From Methanoregula sp. PtaU1.Bin051 (GTDB lineage: Archaea; Halobacteriota; Methanomicrobia; Methanomicrobiales; Methanospirillaceae): a stretch of DNA of 63,768 nucleotides. The stretch covers positions 1-63,768 of the forward strand of contig MVRE01000019.1 of assembly GCA_002067895.1 (NCBI GenBank), in the 5' to 3' direction. Position numbers and translations under genes: made by a program. The first letter of the stretch is position 1; each line of letters starts with the position of its first letter. This document shows positions 3,145 to 9,781 of this stretch, piece by piece. The notes below the pieces were generated by a model, which searched no databases, was not told the DNA's origin, and saw nothing but the letters and a program-made list of their open reading frames with translations.

Positions 3145-3635
3145 ATTTGCCAGGAGTACCGAAGGGGGGGGTTACGATGATAGATCTGTCAGCGATACTG
3201 TATGTTGGTGATGTGATGAGCTACCAGATGCTTATGATGAAATTATTCTGCCACCTGAATTTTTGAAAAGAATTGTACGGCTCCAAAAATTTTTATAAAA
3301 TTTCTCACAACAAAAGTATTGGGAGACCGTTTGTTACCGAGGAAAATATTACGATGACCACCAGCCTCAAGGTCTCTCCGCAGCACGGCGGGACAGATTA
3401 CCGTACATGTAGAAGTGATACCATATTGAGGCCGCCGCGGGGCGCCTTTTGGAGCGGCGGTTGGCATCGTATATCGCTACGTTTTTCCGAAAATCCAGTG
3501 GCCTGCCCCCCAACCCCCATCCCGCAACCGCATTTTCATGGCACATTCCTTCTTGCCATTGACAGCCGTCAATTTTTAAAATCAACACGGAAATCGATAT
3601 CTGATGATTGAGGATAACAATTAACATCAGCCCAG

Positions 3636-3701
3636 TCAGCCCATCCCATAATCACACCTCAAGTAATCCTTCTCTGATCAGATATTGCGGGAGAACCCAG
3701 C
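3636..3701 (-). pseudogene. Remnant of a duplicated BioD-like/cysteine-protein gene junction
   Basis: 62 of 66 nt match 5065-5130, which spans the stop of the P-loop protein gene and the start of the following gene. Read on the minus strand it encodes SWVLPQYLIREGLLEV, stop, then GGTGTGATT and ATG GGA TGG GCT GA. It therefore preserves the end of one gene, the ribosome-binding site and the start of the next. Outside these 66 nt similarity ends: upstream is unrelated and downstream the frame stops after about 26 codons. It shows that a second copy of the gene pair once existed or was partly inserted here. Confidence 0.85.
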
Positions 3702-3768
3702 TGTTATTGTATCAAATACAATTCGTCTATGTATTTGGATTTGAAGCGAAATCCCTGTTGAATAATTG

Positions 3769-4461
3769 TTAAAAATGTTTATTTAAATCGATCCCGCTAT
3801 CGATATAAACTGAGATTTTCCATCCTCTCATATCCGTTTTATCAAGTTGCTGGTTTTCCGGCGTTTGATTTTTCACCCAGAGAATAATTTCTTTTTTCGG
3901 GGGGACAACCCATGGATCTTTTTGTGCATAAAATGATAATATTTGTAATTCGGGCTTCATTTTTAATTTATTTAGCTCTATATAAATACTATCGATCTCT
4001 TTTTCGAACTCTGTATCATGAATAATTCTTATAGTCCAGTTATCGATTTTTTTTCCTTGTATGTTGTGAATTTCATCCTGATTTCGAACACGACATATGT
4101 AAAAAGTAACTTGTTCGTTATTCGGGTCAATCTCCCATAAGCTTATACTGAAATTCTGAGATGATGTAAATCGAATGCGATACATTTCCTTGTTTACATC
4201 ATCTGGCAACACTTTCTTCCAATAATCCAGAACCTGCTGCTGGTTCAACCGCAGAGGAATCTTCTGAGTCATATTTCCATTTCCTTCCGATAAATTTTCA
4301 TTATTTAATGATTCCTTTGTCATGTTTTTTGAGACCTCCTTTTCTTTCATTCCTGATATGTTAAACATGTTCAATGCGATGATGAGAAACACAAAAATTA
4401 ATAGTAAGAGAATAAATATTCTGCACCGTCCATTTGTCAGAATCTCTCGGATCTTTAGCAT
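3769..4461 (-). CDS. Hypothetical membrane-anchored protein
   Basis: 230 aa, not recognised. Residues about 16-34 form one strongly hydrophobic segment (IFILLLLIFVFLIIALNMF) after a positively charged N-terminus, so the rest should be outside the cell (N-in, C-out) or, less likely, the segment is a signal peptide. The exposed part begins with an Asn/Lys-rich spacer (36-68) and continues as a globular domain with several N-glycosylation sequons (for example NMT, NFS, NWT, NQT). It starts 11 nt after the stop of the cysteine-containing protein and probably shares its transcript. The DNA is more AT-rich than the flanking housekeeping genes. Confidence 0.65.
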   Translation of the reverse strand: MLKIREILTNGRCRIFILLLLIFVFLIIALNMFNISGMKEKEVSKNMTKESLNNENLSEGNGNMTQKIPLRLNQQQVLDYWKKVLPDDVNKEMYRIRFTSSQNFSISLWEIDPNNEQVTFYICRVRNQDEIHNIQGKKIDNWTIRIIHDTEFEKEIDSIYIELNKLKMKPELQILSFYAQKDPWVVPPKKEIILWVKNQTPENQQLDKTDMRGWKISVYIDSGIDLNKHF

Positions 4462-4472
4462 TCATATCACCA

Positions 4473-5078
4473 TTAATAAGACTCATTCAAAGAAACATCT
4501 CCATTATTATCAATATAAAAAGTTACAAGTGGTGGATAATCGGGAATAAGAGAATTACAGTTGCTGTAACCTATAATCTCACTTATTTTCACTTTCGTTT
4601 TTGGAACACTACTGTTGGGAGGTTTTGGAATCTGATCAACACCACACTCATCACCAATCTGGATATTCAGATCCCCGTACTGAAATTTTTGCCAATTGCT
4701 CCACGTTGTATATTCTTCCGGGCCGGATCCATTAAACAGTGATAATGCAGCATGGCCTTTATGTTTTGGATTCGAACAAAAATCGGTGAATATTGCAACA
4801 TGATAAACGTGCAAACCAGCAGGCCCATTGGCCGGAATATATGGTCGCGCTTTTTCATCACCACAATCCGAATTCACTTTCCATTGACAATTCTGCAGGA
4901 GGATTCGGTCCTGTGCACTCGGATTGCCCGTATGAGCAAAGTTCATTGCAGCATTGTTTGTGCAATGGTTTGCGTCCTGCCACGGACTTGAACTATCCGG
5001 TCGCCATAAGAGAATTGCAGAACTGAGGAACTGCCCCGTGTTCGGTATACACACATCCGCATATTCAGCCCATCCCAT
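4473..5078 (-). CDS. Hypothetical cysteine-containing protein
   Basis: 201 aa from ATG at 5078, preceded by GGAGGTG and separated from the upstream stop by only 2 nt, so it is translationally coupled to the P-loop protein. No family is recognised. It has eight cysteines spread through the chain (CIPNTG, NHCTNN, QNCQW, SDCGD, DFCSNP, DECGV, SNCNS and similar) and an aromatic, Gly/Asn-rich composition, with no signal peptide. The regular cysteines could bind metal or form disulphides. By context it could be a substrate or a structural partner of the radical SAM enzyme, but this is inference. The first residues MGWAEYADV are also preserved in the remnant at 3636-3701. Confidence 0.7.
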   Translation of the reverse strand: MGWAEYADVCIPNTGQFLSSAILLWRPDSSSPWQDANHCTNNAAMNFAHTGNPSAQDRILLQNCQWKVNSDCGDEKARPYIPANGPAGLHVYHVAIFTDFCSNPKHKGHAALSLFNGSGPEEYTTWSNWQKFQYGDLNIQIGDECGVDQIPKPPNSSVPKTKVKISEIIGYSNCNSLIPDYPPLVTFYIDNNGDVSLNESY

Positions 5079-5080
5079 AA

Positions 5081-6130
5081 TCACACCTCCAGAAATCCTT
5101 CCCTGATCAGATACTGCGGGAGAACCCAGCCGTCACAGTAAACAATATTCTCCTCTCTCCATACCGGTTCGGTGTTTTCAAATTTTTGGTGAACCCAGAA
5201 GCGGTTATTATACCCGGAGTAAGGTTCCCCGTCCGGGCATATTGGAGATCCTGGTTTGTTATTTTTAATTGTGGACAGAATTGTCGGATAATCCCCGGTC
5301 AACGGTTTCTTGAGCTGCATTTTTTTAAGCTCAAGATATACGTTTGGCTGGTAACAGATGCACTCTCTGTTTTTAGGCCGTACTGAAAATTTCAAATCCT
5401 GATTTTTGCATTGTCCGATAACTGCCATATCATAATCACCTCTTTTCAGGCTTCTCTGGAATCCGCATGGATCATACCCGAACCATTTCAGTGACGGAAA
5501 GATATCCCAGAATTCCCCGGGAAATGCCCCGAATGCGATAATGTTCCTGGAACTTTTTGGAAACTTCATCCGGGGATTAACGGTATCAGAAACAAGTTCA
5601 TCGGCATGATGGAGTTCAGGTGTTGTATCAACGCACGGCCCTTCAACGACCGTTGGAGTTTTTGTCAGCAGGATCTGATTGTTGCGTTCGTGAACCAGAT
5701 CCCAGAACGCCATCAGGTTCTGGTTGCGGCCGATTCCATGTCTGCTCCGGTTCCAGAGTTTTGAATATGAATCAAAAACATGCCCCTTCCAATCATATCT
5801 CACATCAAAGGATACCGCCTCGTTGACATTCTTGAAAAGATCCACATACGCTGCCCCAAAAGGGGAATAGGGCATGGAAATTTCCATGATGTATAAATCA
5901 TATCCTTTTGGAACCCACTGTTCGAACATTGTTTTTCCCTGTGTTGCTTCGAGCGGGATTGTGTAGTGACAGACTCCTTTTTTCAGATACAGTCCGACAT
6001 CGTTCTGGCCTTTGTTATTCTGAAGACATGCAACTCGTTTGCCTTCGTCCTTCAATTTCCTTTCAAGCAACAAGGCAGCCGTAGTTTTGCCTTGTTCGGG
6101 GATAGACGATAAAATAAATATTTCAGACAT
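5081..6130 (-). CDS. BioD/CobB-like P-loop protein
   Basis: 349 aa from the ATG at 6130; an in-frame extension to 6271 lies inside the upstream gene and is rejected. The N-terminus FILSSIPEQGKTTAALLLERKL is a Walker A of the dethiobiotin-synthetase/CobQ type (glycine, lysine, two threonines) and is followed by GKRVACLQNNKG, as in that family. A central YDLYIMEIS strand could be Walker B. The C-terminal half (about 150-349) has no family I recognise and ends with GWVLPQYLIREGFLEV. The start overlaps the radical SAM stop by 8 nt, so the two proteins are probably made in proportion. ATP-dependent ligation or amidation is a possible role but not shown. Confidence 0.7.
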   Translation of the reverse strand: MSEIFILSSIPEQGKTTAALLLERKLKDEGKRVACLQNNKGQNDVGLYLKKGVCHYTIPLEATQGKTMFEQWVPKGYDLYIMEISMPYSPFGAAYVDLFKNVNEAVSFDVRYDWKGHVFDSYSKLWNRSRHGIGRNQNLMAFWDLVHERNNQILLTKTPTVVEGPCVDTTPELHHADELVSDTVNPRMKFPKSSRNIIAFGAFPGEFWDIFPSLKWFGYDPCGFQRSLKRGDYDMAVIGQCKNQDLKFSVRPKNRECICYQPNVYLELKKMQLKKPLTGDYPTILSTIKNNKPGSPICPDGEPYSGYNNRFWVHQKFENTEPVWREENIVYCDGWVLPQYLIREGFLEV

Positions 6131-6956
6131 ATGCAAATCTCCTGCAACAGGTTTCGAATTGGTCTCTCGTACCTTTCCGGCGAATCTGATCCCAAAAGAG
6201 GAGATCCCCGATCTTCTGGGGATACCTCCCAAGAACCATCTGGTTGCGTGAACAGTCCCAGTAGGTTCCATCCGGAAGAACAGAGATGCCTAAAATTCCG
6301 CCAATGCATCCTTCTTCAATGCAGGTGTTGGGAACGGGGATATTTTCACTTTCAAGATCTTTTTTTACATACTTTCTCAGCTGGAGCCATTCATTAATAG
6401 AAACCGGATCAAGGTTATTATCCTTCACCGGTTGATAAAGATTGAAATTCAGGAGTGCAGCGTTGGTTTTTTTACATAGTTGTATGATGTGATCAATCGT
6501 GTGCAGGTTTTGTTTGTTGAGAGTGAATGAGATTGTATGACAGATTTTTCTTTCGTTAAGACATCTAAGGGCATTCACGGCCTTTTGATATGATCCGAAT
6601 CCACGAATGTAATCATGTGTCTCTTCATCACCATCGATGCTTATCTGGACACAGTCGCTTGGTTTGAAGATTGATAGATAGTGTGACACTAGTATGCCAT
6701 TTGTACTTAATGAAAGCCTGCCATTGAGTGATCGGATAATATCGCAGACTTCAGCAAACTGCGGGTGAAGAAGCGGGTCACCACCACTAAGAATAATATT
6801 ACTATGAGGCAGCGGAAAACCGGCATTCAGAAAATCGGTACAGACATTTTTTATCATTTCGGGTGGCATCGTCCTGTTTCCCTTATTCATGTAACAATGC
6901 CGGCAGTTCAACTGGCAATAATCGACAATATGTAAGTCAATAAAATTAAATGCCAT
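6123..6956 (-). CDS. Radical SAM protein with SPASM-like C-terminal cysteines
   Basis: 277 aa. Cys14, Cys18 and Cys21 form the CxxxCxxC motif that holds the radical SAM [4Fe-4S] cluster. ILSGGDPLLHP is the GGE-like SAM-binding element with Asp in place of the usual Glu. The C-terminal third has CIEEGCIGG, then LPDGTYWDCSRNQ and FETCCRRF, a cysteine pattern like the auxiliary-cluster (SPASM/twitch) domains of peptide-modifying enzymes. It is the first gene of a four-gene minus-strand run with an 8-nt overlap to the P-loop gene. Substrate unknown; peptide or cofactor modification is inferred from the architecture. Confidence 0.85.
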   Translation of the reverse strand: MAFNFIDLHIVDYCQLNCRHCYMNKGNRTMPPEMIKNVCTDFLNAGFPLPHSNIILSGGDPLLHPQFAEVCDIIRSLNGRLSLSTNGILVSHYLSIFKPSDCVQISIDGDEETHDYIRGFGSYQKAVNALRCLNERKICHTISFTLNKQNLHTIDHIIQLCKKTNAALLNFNLYQPVKDNNLDPVSINEWLQLRKYVKKDLESENIPVPNTCIEEGCIGGILGISVLPDGTYWDCSRNQMVLGRYPQKIGDLLFWDQIRRKGTRDQFETCCRRFAYV

Positions 6957-7186: not shown

Positions 7187-9781
7187 TTACTTCTTCCCAA
7201 CTGTCACGATAACGTCACCGACAGTGAGCACGTCCACCTTCTCGCCCTCTTCCACGTAAGAGAAGATCGGGGTAAATGCGTTCTCCGGAATCCTGACAAT
7301 GCTTCCGTCAATGCTGATGGTCTCTGGCGGGTGTTCGAGCTGTTCAGGCGGCAGTTTCTTTACTGCGTCTTTGAAAGCCTGTGCCTGTTTCCGGAACGTT
7401 TTTCCGACAACGGAGTTGTCAAAACTGATGTCTGTTACGATGCGGGCAAGCTGCGCCGTATCGTTGCGCCAGTGAACGGATGCATTCAGGGCCCGTGCAG
7501 CGTCTCCCTCATCGCTTTCCGTGTGAGGGGAGTACACTGTTACCTTCCCGAGCGGAGCGTTGAGTGCAAGGCCGGAATCGTGCTTGTATTTACGGACTTC
7601 GGCAACGACCTTTACGAGGGCATCCCCCTCCGCGAGCGCTTTCTGATCGTCATACGTGAACGTGACCCACAGCTGTTTGTGTACGCTCTGTCCCGGCCGG
7701 AAGAACGAGTAGCACTCCTCCGTAAAGTACGGGACGAATGGTGCGAGCATCCGGAGGATCGCGTCGAACGCTGTCGCAAGCGCCAGGACTGCGCCCTTGC
7801 GCGAGGAATCGTCTGCATACAGCCGGCCCTTGACAAGCTCGATGTAGTTGTCGGCGAGCACGTCCCACGCGAACTCCTTTATGGCCCGAAGCGCATCGTC
7901 GAAGAGGTACTTCTCCATTGCAACTGTTACCTGTTCCGTCGTTTCCGAGAGCTTTGCGAGCAGCCAGCGGTCGGCAAGCGCTGTGACCGGCACGTTCTCG
8001 TCGATACCCTCTTTTTCGAGCTGCAGCAGGACGAACTTTGCGATATTCCACGTCTTTGTCTGGAACCGTGACGCGGCGATTACGTCGTTCCAGTTGAACA
8101 TGATGTCGGAACCTGTCGCCGCGCCGGTCGCCGCCCACTGCCGGAGCGCGTCGGCACCGTATTTTTCAAGGATCTGTTCGGGCATGATGATGTTGCCGCG
8201 GCTCTTGGACATCTTGAATCCGTCCTCGCCAAGCACCATGCCGTTGATTACGATCTGGTCCCATGGGCGTCTGCCGGTGAGGGCGACCGAGCGGAGAATG
8301 GTATAGAATGCCCATGTCCGGATGATGTCATGGCCCTGCGGCCGGATCTGCGCCGGGAAGATCTTCGGGATGCCGCTCCCGTCCCAGCCGGTCACATTCA
8401 GGACCGAGATCGATGAGTCCATCCATGTATCCAGTACATCCTCTTCACCGGCAAATTCGGTGCCGCCGCATTTTTTGCACGGGTGTTTTGGTTTTGTAAG
8501 CGTAGGGTCAATTGGGAGATCTTTTTCATCCGGGACAGCCATCTCCCCGCACTTTTTGCAGAACCAGACCGGGATTGGGGTGGCAAAAATCCGCTGCCGC
8601 GAGATGCACCAGTCCCACTCCATCTGGGAGACCCAGTTCTCCATCCGGAGGAACATATGCTCCGGGTACCACGCGATCTCCTTTGCCGCCTTTAAGATTT
8701 CGTCAGGTCGGATCTTCACGAACCACTGCCGCTCGGAGAGGATTTCGATCGGGGTCTTGCACCGCCAGCAGGTGCCGACCCGCTGCGTGAGCTGCTCCTG
8801 CCTCTTTAAGATGCCCTGCTCTTTCATGTCGGCAAGGATTGCTTCCCGGCATTCGGGTGCGCTCATCCCCCTGTACTTCCCGGCAATGTCCGTCATCTTA
8901 CCGCGACGGTCGATTGCCCTCCTTAGCGGTAGGTTGTGCTGCTTCCACCAGTGGACGTCCTGCTTGTCGCCAAACGTACAGATCATGACCGCGCCGGACC
9001 CGAACGCGGGGTCGACAGCCTCGTCCCGGATAACCGGGACCGAATGTCCGAAGATCGGGACCCTGAGCGATTTTCCTTTCAGGTTGTGGTACCGCTCGTC
9101 CGCAGGGTGTGTGGCGACGGCGACGCAGGCCGCGAGGAGTTCCGGCCTGGTCGTCGCGATCTCGATATTGTCGAAATCGAAGTAGTTGAGCTGGGTGGTT
9201 CGCTCGTCGTATGCGACCTCGGCGAACGCGATGGCCGTCTCGCACCGGGTGCAGTAGTTGACCGGGTGCTCGCTCTGGTAGATGTAGCCGAGATCAAGCA
9301 TGCGCAGGAAGGAGAGCTGGGTCCTGCCGTAGTACTCCGGCCGCATCGTGACGTACTCGTTGGACCAGTCGGTGGAGAACCCCAGCCTCCTGAGCGTGAG
9401 CCTCATCGCTTCGATGTTCTTTTCCGTGAGTTCCCGGCACATCCGCCGGAACTCTTCGCGCGAGACATCGTTCTTCGTGATCTTGTTGGTCTCCTCGACC
9501 TTGACTTCCGTAGGGAGGCCGTGGCAGTCCCAGCCCTGCGGGAACATAACGTTGTAGCCCCGCATCCGCTTGTATCGTGCGAAGAAGTCGATGTAGCACC
9601 AGTTCAGTGCATTCCCGATATGGAAGTTACCCGTGGGATACGGGGGAGGCGTATCGATGACAAAAGGAGGTTTTTTGGAATTCCGGTCAAAATAATTGTC
9701 TTCGTCCCGCCACGTCCCCCGCCACTTCTCCTCCACGGGAGCAAACTCGTAGTTCTTTGGCAGTTTTTCAGCGAGTCCCAT
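7187..9781 (-). CDS. valS: Valyl-tRNA synthetase
   Basis: Charges tRNA-Val with valine in the cytosol. 864 aa, normal for the archaeal enzyme. The class I signature HIGH appears as HIGN at residues 54-57 after PPPYPTGNF, and KMSKSRGN is near residues 522-529. An editing (CP1) domain lies between, containing cysteine pairs (TCWRC near 334; CKKC near 410 and 435) typical of zinc-binding archaeal ValRS. The C-terminal anticodon-binding domain follows from about 600. It is a single-gene unit, divergent from the DUF92 gene, with a 230-nt gap to the radical SAM operon downstream. Large antisense open frames here are shadows. Confidence 0.97.

Follow-up and report, generated by a model that had tools for sequence, protein, structure and literature searches.

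What do four tightly coupled genes of a methanogenic archaeon do, when one encodes a radical S-adenosylmethionine (SAM) enzyme, one a P-loop ATPase and two proteins of no recognised family? The genes are found on contig MVRE01000019.1 of Methanoregula sp. PtaU1.Bin051 (assembly GCA_002067895.1), of which positions 1 to 63,768, here called the window, were analysed over their full length of 63,768 nucleotides (nt). All four lie on the minus strand. Gene g1 (6123–6956) encodes the radical SAM protein of 277 amino acids (aa), g2 (5081–6130) a 349-aa ATPase of the SIMIBI type, g3 (4473–5078) a 201-aa protein and g4 (3769–4461) a membrane-anchored protein. The genes g1 and g2 overlap by 8 nt, and gaps of 2 and 11 nt separate g2 from g3 and g3 from g4; this spacing reproduces that given in an earlier sequence-only reading. 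Contrary to the idea of one fixed four-gene pathway, the constant member is g2, the radical SAM gene is an optional extra, and g3 with g4 is one of several exchangeable pairs. Probably the module is a surface or conflict cassette subject to shuffling. Behind its constant ATPase gene stand exchangeable pairs of g3 and a partner, and an optional radical SAM enzyme would cross-link the g3 N-terminus.

The exchange of cassettes is traced by a repeat. The junction of g2 and g3 (copy 1, 5053–5147, minus strand) comprises the 3′ end of g2, a Shine-Dalgarno site and the start of g3. A second copy lies just past g4 (3624–3718, minus strand). Positions 3636–3701 and 5065–5130 are identical at 62 of 66 nt, confirming the 94% noticed before, and the similarity extends to 95 nt at 84%. 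Its earlier interpretation as the leftover of the same duplicated gene pair does not hold. Copy 2 consists of a remnant of g2 residues 332–350 (3655–3711), the Shine-Dalgarno site and a start codon, and then continues into the broken start of a second, different g3. This fragment, g3′ (3508–3649, minus strand), begins MGWADWADV, reads MGWADWADVNCYPQSSDIDFRVDFK and is then frameshifted; a W-x-D W-x-D motif lies at 3626–3643. An intact relative (2396–2977) occurs on contig L051, the sole match in a contig scan with a single protein, whose record is titled Marinimicrobia and is probably mis-binned. Identity to this gene is 100% over 27 aa (tblastn) and 92% over 181 nt (blastn), and copy 2 is therefore the head of a displaced cassette. 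The g2 genes of the window and L051 are 87% identical. On L051 the WADWAD-type gene comes first, directly behind g2, and is followed by a beta-propeller gene; a gene of the MGWAEYADV type comes second, behind another junction copy. As read from the two sequences, the same two g3 variants are therefore held in opposite order.

Junction copies are found in five loci, namely the window, L051, L037 (two copies), L038 and L033. All span the g2 stop and g3 start, and four of six end +25 to +31 nt into g3. Since the g2/g3 junction is likewise repeated in the four loci besides the window (71–96% identity), the repeat in the window is not due to chance. The swapped order and the repeated copies agree with the earlier suspicion of a rapidly turning-over accessory system.

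The junction also carries the translation signal of g3. The Shine-Dalgarno sequence GGAGGTG (5084–5090, minus strand) lies within the last g2 codons, and each of the 31 g3 starts in the set has such a site, mostly an exact GGAGGTG inside the g2 codons for ..L-E-V. By its sequence, g2 is the fixed part of the module, and its last codons double as the g3 ribosome-binding site; this would explain why displaced cassettes keep a g2 tail. Cassette exchange is well supported by these comparisons. The proposed mechanism has three elements. (i) The junction, that is the g2 3′ end plus the first 8–10 g3 codons, would act as a homology arm for the swapping of whole cassettes of g3 and partner. (ii) Recombination at this point would place each incoming g3 under the ribosome-binding site borne by g2. 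(iii) Displaced cassettes would stay downstream as an array and decay. The anatomy of the cassettes is evident in the sequences themselves, and homologous recombination is the putative means of their exchange. In genome G197 (locus L046, compared with L085 of the close genome G221), g2 is fused in frame to the same g3 via a junction deletion. N-terminal 30-residue g2-like fragments, common to two genomes, lie far downstream of the cassettes in L031 (14091–14297) and L033 (15230–15685).

The gene behind g2 is variable. Its product starts MG..., mostly within a few bases of g2, contains 0–4 immunoglobulin (Ig)-like domains and differs at the C-terminus. Clustering of C-termini and next genes distinguishes at least five types (A–E), type A being that of the window. 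The Ig fold is confirmed in a model of the g3 member of L033; it was the only domain matched in the fold search, where the type A domain had no family or fold match, which is not proof of novelty. The type of C-terminus goes with the kind of partner. A gene of the g4 family comes next in 9 of 11 cases for type A and in 0 of 19 for the other types (p 4e-6). The remaining two type A genes precede propellers of the PQQ/WD40 type, and behind types B–E the next gene mainly encodes a PD40/TolB-like propeller. The window g4, described earlier as membrane-anchored, has one N-terminal transmembrane-like segment and several N-x-S/T sites in the remainder. The partner (g4, or the beta-propeller in other loci) is taken to be fixed to the cell surface. 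Since it is membrane-bound or exported, the probable site of action of g3 is likewise the surface or the outside of the cell. One weak match below cut-off was not taken to indicate PGF-CTERM ends on the propellers.

The g3 of the window contains seven cysteines, not eight as counted earlier, and cysteines are not what gene 3 proteins share. Conserved positions are C39, N42, H109 and N128-W129. Among type A proteins, in window numbering, C39 and N42 are invariant, H109 is present in all full-length members, and position 128 is N, D or S. In the model of the relative from L033, a helix starts with the Cys and a strand follows the His. We take this layout to resemble papain-like or transglutaminase-like folds. 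A Cys-His-Asn domain of this kind, with C39 as part of the site, is suggestive only.

This organisation invites comparison with polymorphic toxin systems such as Rhs and contact-dependent inhibition (CDI). A polymorphic toxin proper is a serious possibility, although less probable than the shuffled cassette of open role, with which it overlaps. The C-terminal types of g3 would be the toxins, g4 and the propellers the immunity proteins, and displaced cassettes the orphan pairs. The two share a constant upstream gene, an exchangeable effector with its cognate partner, and displaced orphan cassettes that retain a short piece of the constant gene. Here, however, the constant and variable parts lie in two genes, which are linked through a Shine-Dalgarno region common to both, and no toxin or delivery domain is recognised: g3 has no Pfam toxin match, no known toxin fold, no trafficking domain and no evident signal peptide. 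Type A does carry the conserved Cys, His and Asn. TolB-like propellers would also be unusual as immunity proteins. The lack of a toxin domain and of a signal peptide in g3 weighs against the shuffled surface or conflict cassette too, for which a role in contact-dependent conflict or recognition is suggested by analogy.

The constant protein g2 is related to SIMIBI NTPases of the CbiA/CobQ/BioD/ParA kind. In a structure model of high confidence (predicted local distance difference test, pLDDT, 92.6), residues 1–179 align with SRP54, FtsY, ParF and BioD (Z 9.6–11.5, root-mean-square deviation 2.9–4). The N-terminal 180 residues thus have the fold of these proteins and a Walker A-like motif. Unlike them, g2 has no family model above cut-off and is nearly always followed by a variable g3. 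The fold search gave no whole-length match and hardly covered the C-terminal half, which in the alignment ends in the conserved sequence NGWVLPQYLIRxGFLEV. No assignment was obtained for this half, and that is no proof of its novelty. No glutaminase (GATase_3) Pfam match was found in 15 g2 members, and the PDB sequence search with g2 yielded nothing useful. The former description as a CobQ/BioD-like ATPase stands for the fold, including the alignment with BioD; at the level of families, Pfam CbiA reaches 0.0038 at best, below cut-off, in 5 of 15 members. Searches with g2, g3 and g4 gave no hit above cut-off in Pfam, NCBIfam or PADLOC and none at E 0.01 in PHROGs. This agrees with the view that the set belongs to no named pathway, and g3 was assigned to no unrelated family.

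The optional gene g1 encodes a radical SAM protein (Pfam Radical_SAM, 9.6e-18) with the motif CQLNCRHC and a tail containing CIEEGC, WDCSRNQ and QFETCC. Its best curated match is TIGR04340, the radical SAM protein of the ACGX system (95.6 bits, far below cut-off), and SkfB is matched in the PDB (9.7e-13). The top curated and structural matches include peptide maturases. A SPASM-like enzyme had been proposed. The radical SAM assignment is sound, but in place of a full SPASM domain g1 has a short tail of the twitch/SPASM kind, poor in additional cysteines. Those conserved in the alignment are only a C-x4-C, one cysteine within WDCSRNQ/WDCPRxQ, and one or two (C or CC) close to the end. The gene is absent from some g2 loci, including that of a second g2 copy in the same genome. 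Other radical SAM proteins, of the DCNLDCPFC type, are encoded near g2 loci without g1 (12603–13430 in L043; also L044 and L047). In L115, L116, L117 and L121, a second radical SAM-like protein precedes the g1 relative, several with a Tat-like N-terminus (RRxFIKxSA).

The presence of g1 is associated with the start of g3. A tandem [WY]x[DN] motif opens 12 of 18 g3 genes with the radical SAM gene versus 1 of 21 without it (p=7e-5), or by genome 12 of 14 versus 1 of 12 (p=2e-4), Fisher values that are partly inflated by the relatedness of loci. Where g1 is present, g3 starts with MGWADWADV, MGWSDWGDWMDC, MGGGGWSDWGNWANCC or MGWGDWGNWSDV; where it is absent, with MGSPPPSPP, MGGGGNPPVV or MCGPIVYPPV. 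The lone genome with the motif and no radical SAM gene contains locus L082, whose g2 is truncated next to a transposase. A leader-like stretch, INKKRWERWRARQ (INKKRWERWRA), precedes the W-x-D core in loci that have g1 and lack g2, and only there. When 384 genomes were searched, blind to gene neighbours, for W.[DN]x3, seven in-frame cases were returned, of which four are the gene beside this radical SAM gene (hypergeometric 5e-5). Directly behind two more remote relatives of g1, in other genomes, come MGGWGDWSGDWSGDWSDWSDW and MTWSDWSGDWSGDWSDWSDW, with long W-S-D/W-S-G-D runs. In the g2 phylogeny the loci with the radical SAM gene do not form one clade (p of the approximately unbiased test, p-AU, 0.003), and the window and L051 nest among loci without it; enzyme and motif have therefore changed in concert on two or more occasions.

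Among known enzymes, OscB cross-links W-x-N/D and YxdB cross-links Y-x-D, at positions i,i+2 (PMC11002830). By likeness to these, g1 most likely acts, where present, on the aromatic-x-Asp/Asn start of g3, which it would cross-link into a three-residue cyclophane or by related chemistry. The candidate target in the window is WAEYAD (5055–5072, minus strand). Like the triceptide systems (XncB, OscB, YxdB; PMC11002830), the module places a radical SAM gene beside a gene with aromatic-x-Asn/Asp triplets, a mark of systems with three-residue cyclophane-forming enzymes (3-CyFE). Those enzymes, in contrast, have SPASM domains with two auxiliary clusters and about seven cysteines, and g1 lacks the full SPASM cysteine set. 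Their substrates are short precursors with an N-terminal leader and a C-terminal core, whereas the candidate target here is the N-terminus of a protein of 130–420 aa, mostly leaderless. The C–C cross-link between residues i and i+2 that marks these systems is putative here. Of the three earlier suggestions (RiPP-like, that is akin to ribosomally synthesized and post-translationally modified peptides; cofactor; defence), the RiPP-like one is the most promising, through the link between the radical SAM gene and W-x-D; for a cofactor pathway or antiviral defence, only generic radical SAM matches were found.

Several observations weigh against the shuffled cassette with a cross-linked g3. The auxiliary cysteines of g1 are fewer than in a seven-cysteine SPASM enzyme. 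Genomes G066 and G335 carry the radical SAM gene without the tandem motif, and the motif of the window g3 is one Glu off the strict pattern, which g3′ has as WADWAD. Of the phylogenetically independent contrasts for the radical SAM gene, just two fall on branches with good support, a number too small for a sign test. The homology of junctions is partly required anyway for the translation of g3. A bolder form of the explanation is tentative. It would place the module in an archaeal category of its own: a RiPP-type radical SAM enzyme would cross-link the N-terminus of exchangeable effectors acting at the surface, these would be presented or exported by g2 (or by the g3 leader where g2 is absent), and new effectors would enter by recombination at the ribosome-binding site that lies within g2.

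Variation of surface antigens or adhesins is an unlikely alternative. Swapped Ig-like display would evade viruses or change partners; W-x-D would be a binding motif without chemistry, and g1 would act elsewhere. The Ig folds, the membrane-anchored or exported partners, the propellers and the patchy distribution all fit such a role, but the motif goes with the radical SAM gene across three gene contexts, not with the type of partner, and the conserved Cys, His and Asn of type A suggest an active domain. Still less support attends a cofactor or tetrapyrrole pathway, in which a CbiA-like ATPase and a NirJ/AhbC-like radical SAM enzyme, often near cobN, would make or modify a cofactor. This is very improbable: the weak CbiA match of g2, the presence of NirJ/AhbC among the generic matches of g1, and cobN–ABC transporter genes near 9 of about 24 loci are set against a radical SAM gene that is optional and absent from most cobN-linked loci, and neighbours that are variable Ig-like and propeller proteins. 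An antiviral module of a prokaryotic viperin-like enzyme with a P-loop partner is the least probable, since the pVip match of g1 (9.7e-16) covers a generic radical SAM core and its 56 bits are exceeded by generic models and by the 95.6 bits of TIGR04340, g2–g4 match no defence family, and the auxiliary cysteines and the W-x-D association point to peptide modification.

As part of the same probable explanation, the shuffled cassettes form a patchy, horizontally acquired system of methanogenic archaea. The island is foreign by composition (GC 33–45%, third-position GC 36–48%) beside the adjacent valyl-tRNA synthetase gene (GC 58%, third-position GC 76%). That gene (7187–9781) flanks it on one side and a region of remnants on the other. 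The modular system is seen in about 22 methanogen genomes. Of 232 genomes of the order, 19 have a g2 relative (two of them as weak matches to proteins of about 440 aa), as have five genomes elsewhere in the phylum. Among 231 genomes of the order, seven carry a close g1 relative, which adjoins g2 in six and not in the seventh (G226, 36%); 13 further genomes elsewhere in the phylum also carry one. All four genes are present in the genome of the window (G000), G120, G221 and, with g2 and g3 fused, G197; the co-occurrence thus extends to other genera and spans three families. The set g1, g2 and g3 is also found in G188, G066, G275, G408 and contig L051. A mobile-element origin was rejected, as g2 was absent from the IMG/VR viral contigs, the plasmids and the phages searched, and g1 from viral contigs.

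By organisation the module is most like polymorphic toxin systems and the VARTIG modules of Thermococcales, with toxicity and export putative. The authors who described VARTIG report no similar module outside Thermococcales (Makarova et al. 2021, PMC8416519). Both form archaeal islands that are patchy in distribution and of recent acquisition, both encode hypervariable proteins with Ig domains and, downstream, membrane proteins that are exchangeable, and both resemble polymorphic toxin systems. The first VARTIG gene, however, encodes a large secreted arCOG07710 Ig protein with a signal peptide and a C-terminal DNNxxxGG; here the constant gene encodes a P-loop ATPase of the SIMIBI type, and neither feature is evident in the sequence of the 201-aa g3. 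Further differences are the joining of cassettes at the g2/g3 junction and the optional radical SAM gene. The ways in which archaea fight or recognise their neighbours, or vary themselves toward them, are poorly known, and this methanogen module is a clean, testable case. It offers a fixed gene, a defined exchange point, matched pairs of effector and partner, and a radical enzyme that is a candidate for protein modification at a predicted site. The reading suggests that archaea may have a means of varying the proteins with which they contact neighbours, and of editing them chemically. If the modification is real, the peptide chemistry of radical SAM enzymes is not confined to small peptides but includes the ends of polymorphic proteins of full size.

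Some minor observations concern the settings of these genes. The distant radical SAM genes of L119 (G439:C109, 3314–7026) and L120 (G322:C20) are directly followed by genes for proteins starting MGGWGDWSGDWSGDWSDWSDWATDWGGDW (743 aa) and MTWSDWSGDWSGDWSDWSDW. Both settings look like integrated elements, with a weak head-protein match; among viral relatives (27–33%) of the L119 enzyme no W-x-D neighbour was seen. In the genome of the window, a second, frameshifted g2 (G000:C22:694–1756, locus L050) is accompanied by a broken g3 of the MGSPPPSPP type, with no adjoining radical SAM gene and no motif; cobN and ATP-binding cassette (ABC) genes lie upstream. A cobN-like gene is located within about 10 kb of g2 in nine loci (L034, L037, L038, L040, L046, L050, L079, L081 and L085) from five families. 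ABC-2 transporter genes often accompany cobN, and the ABC ATPase gene beside g2 in L038 is cut short. This proximity may reflect an insertion hot spot or a functional link; the hot spot is likelier than a cofactor link, because the orientation of cobN varies and cobN is not near the window locus.

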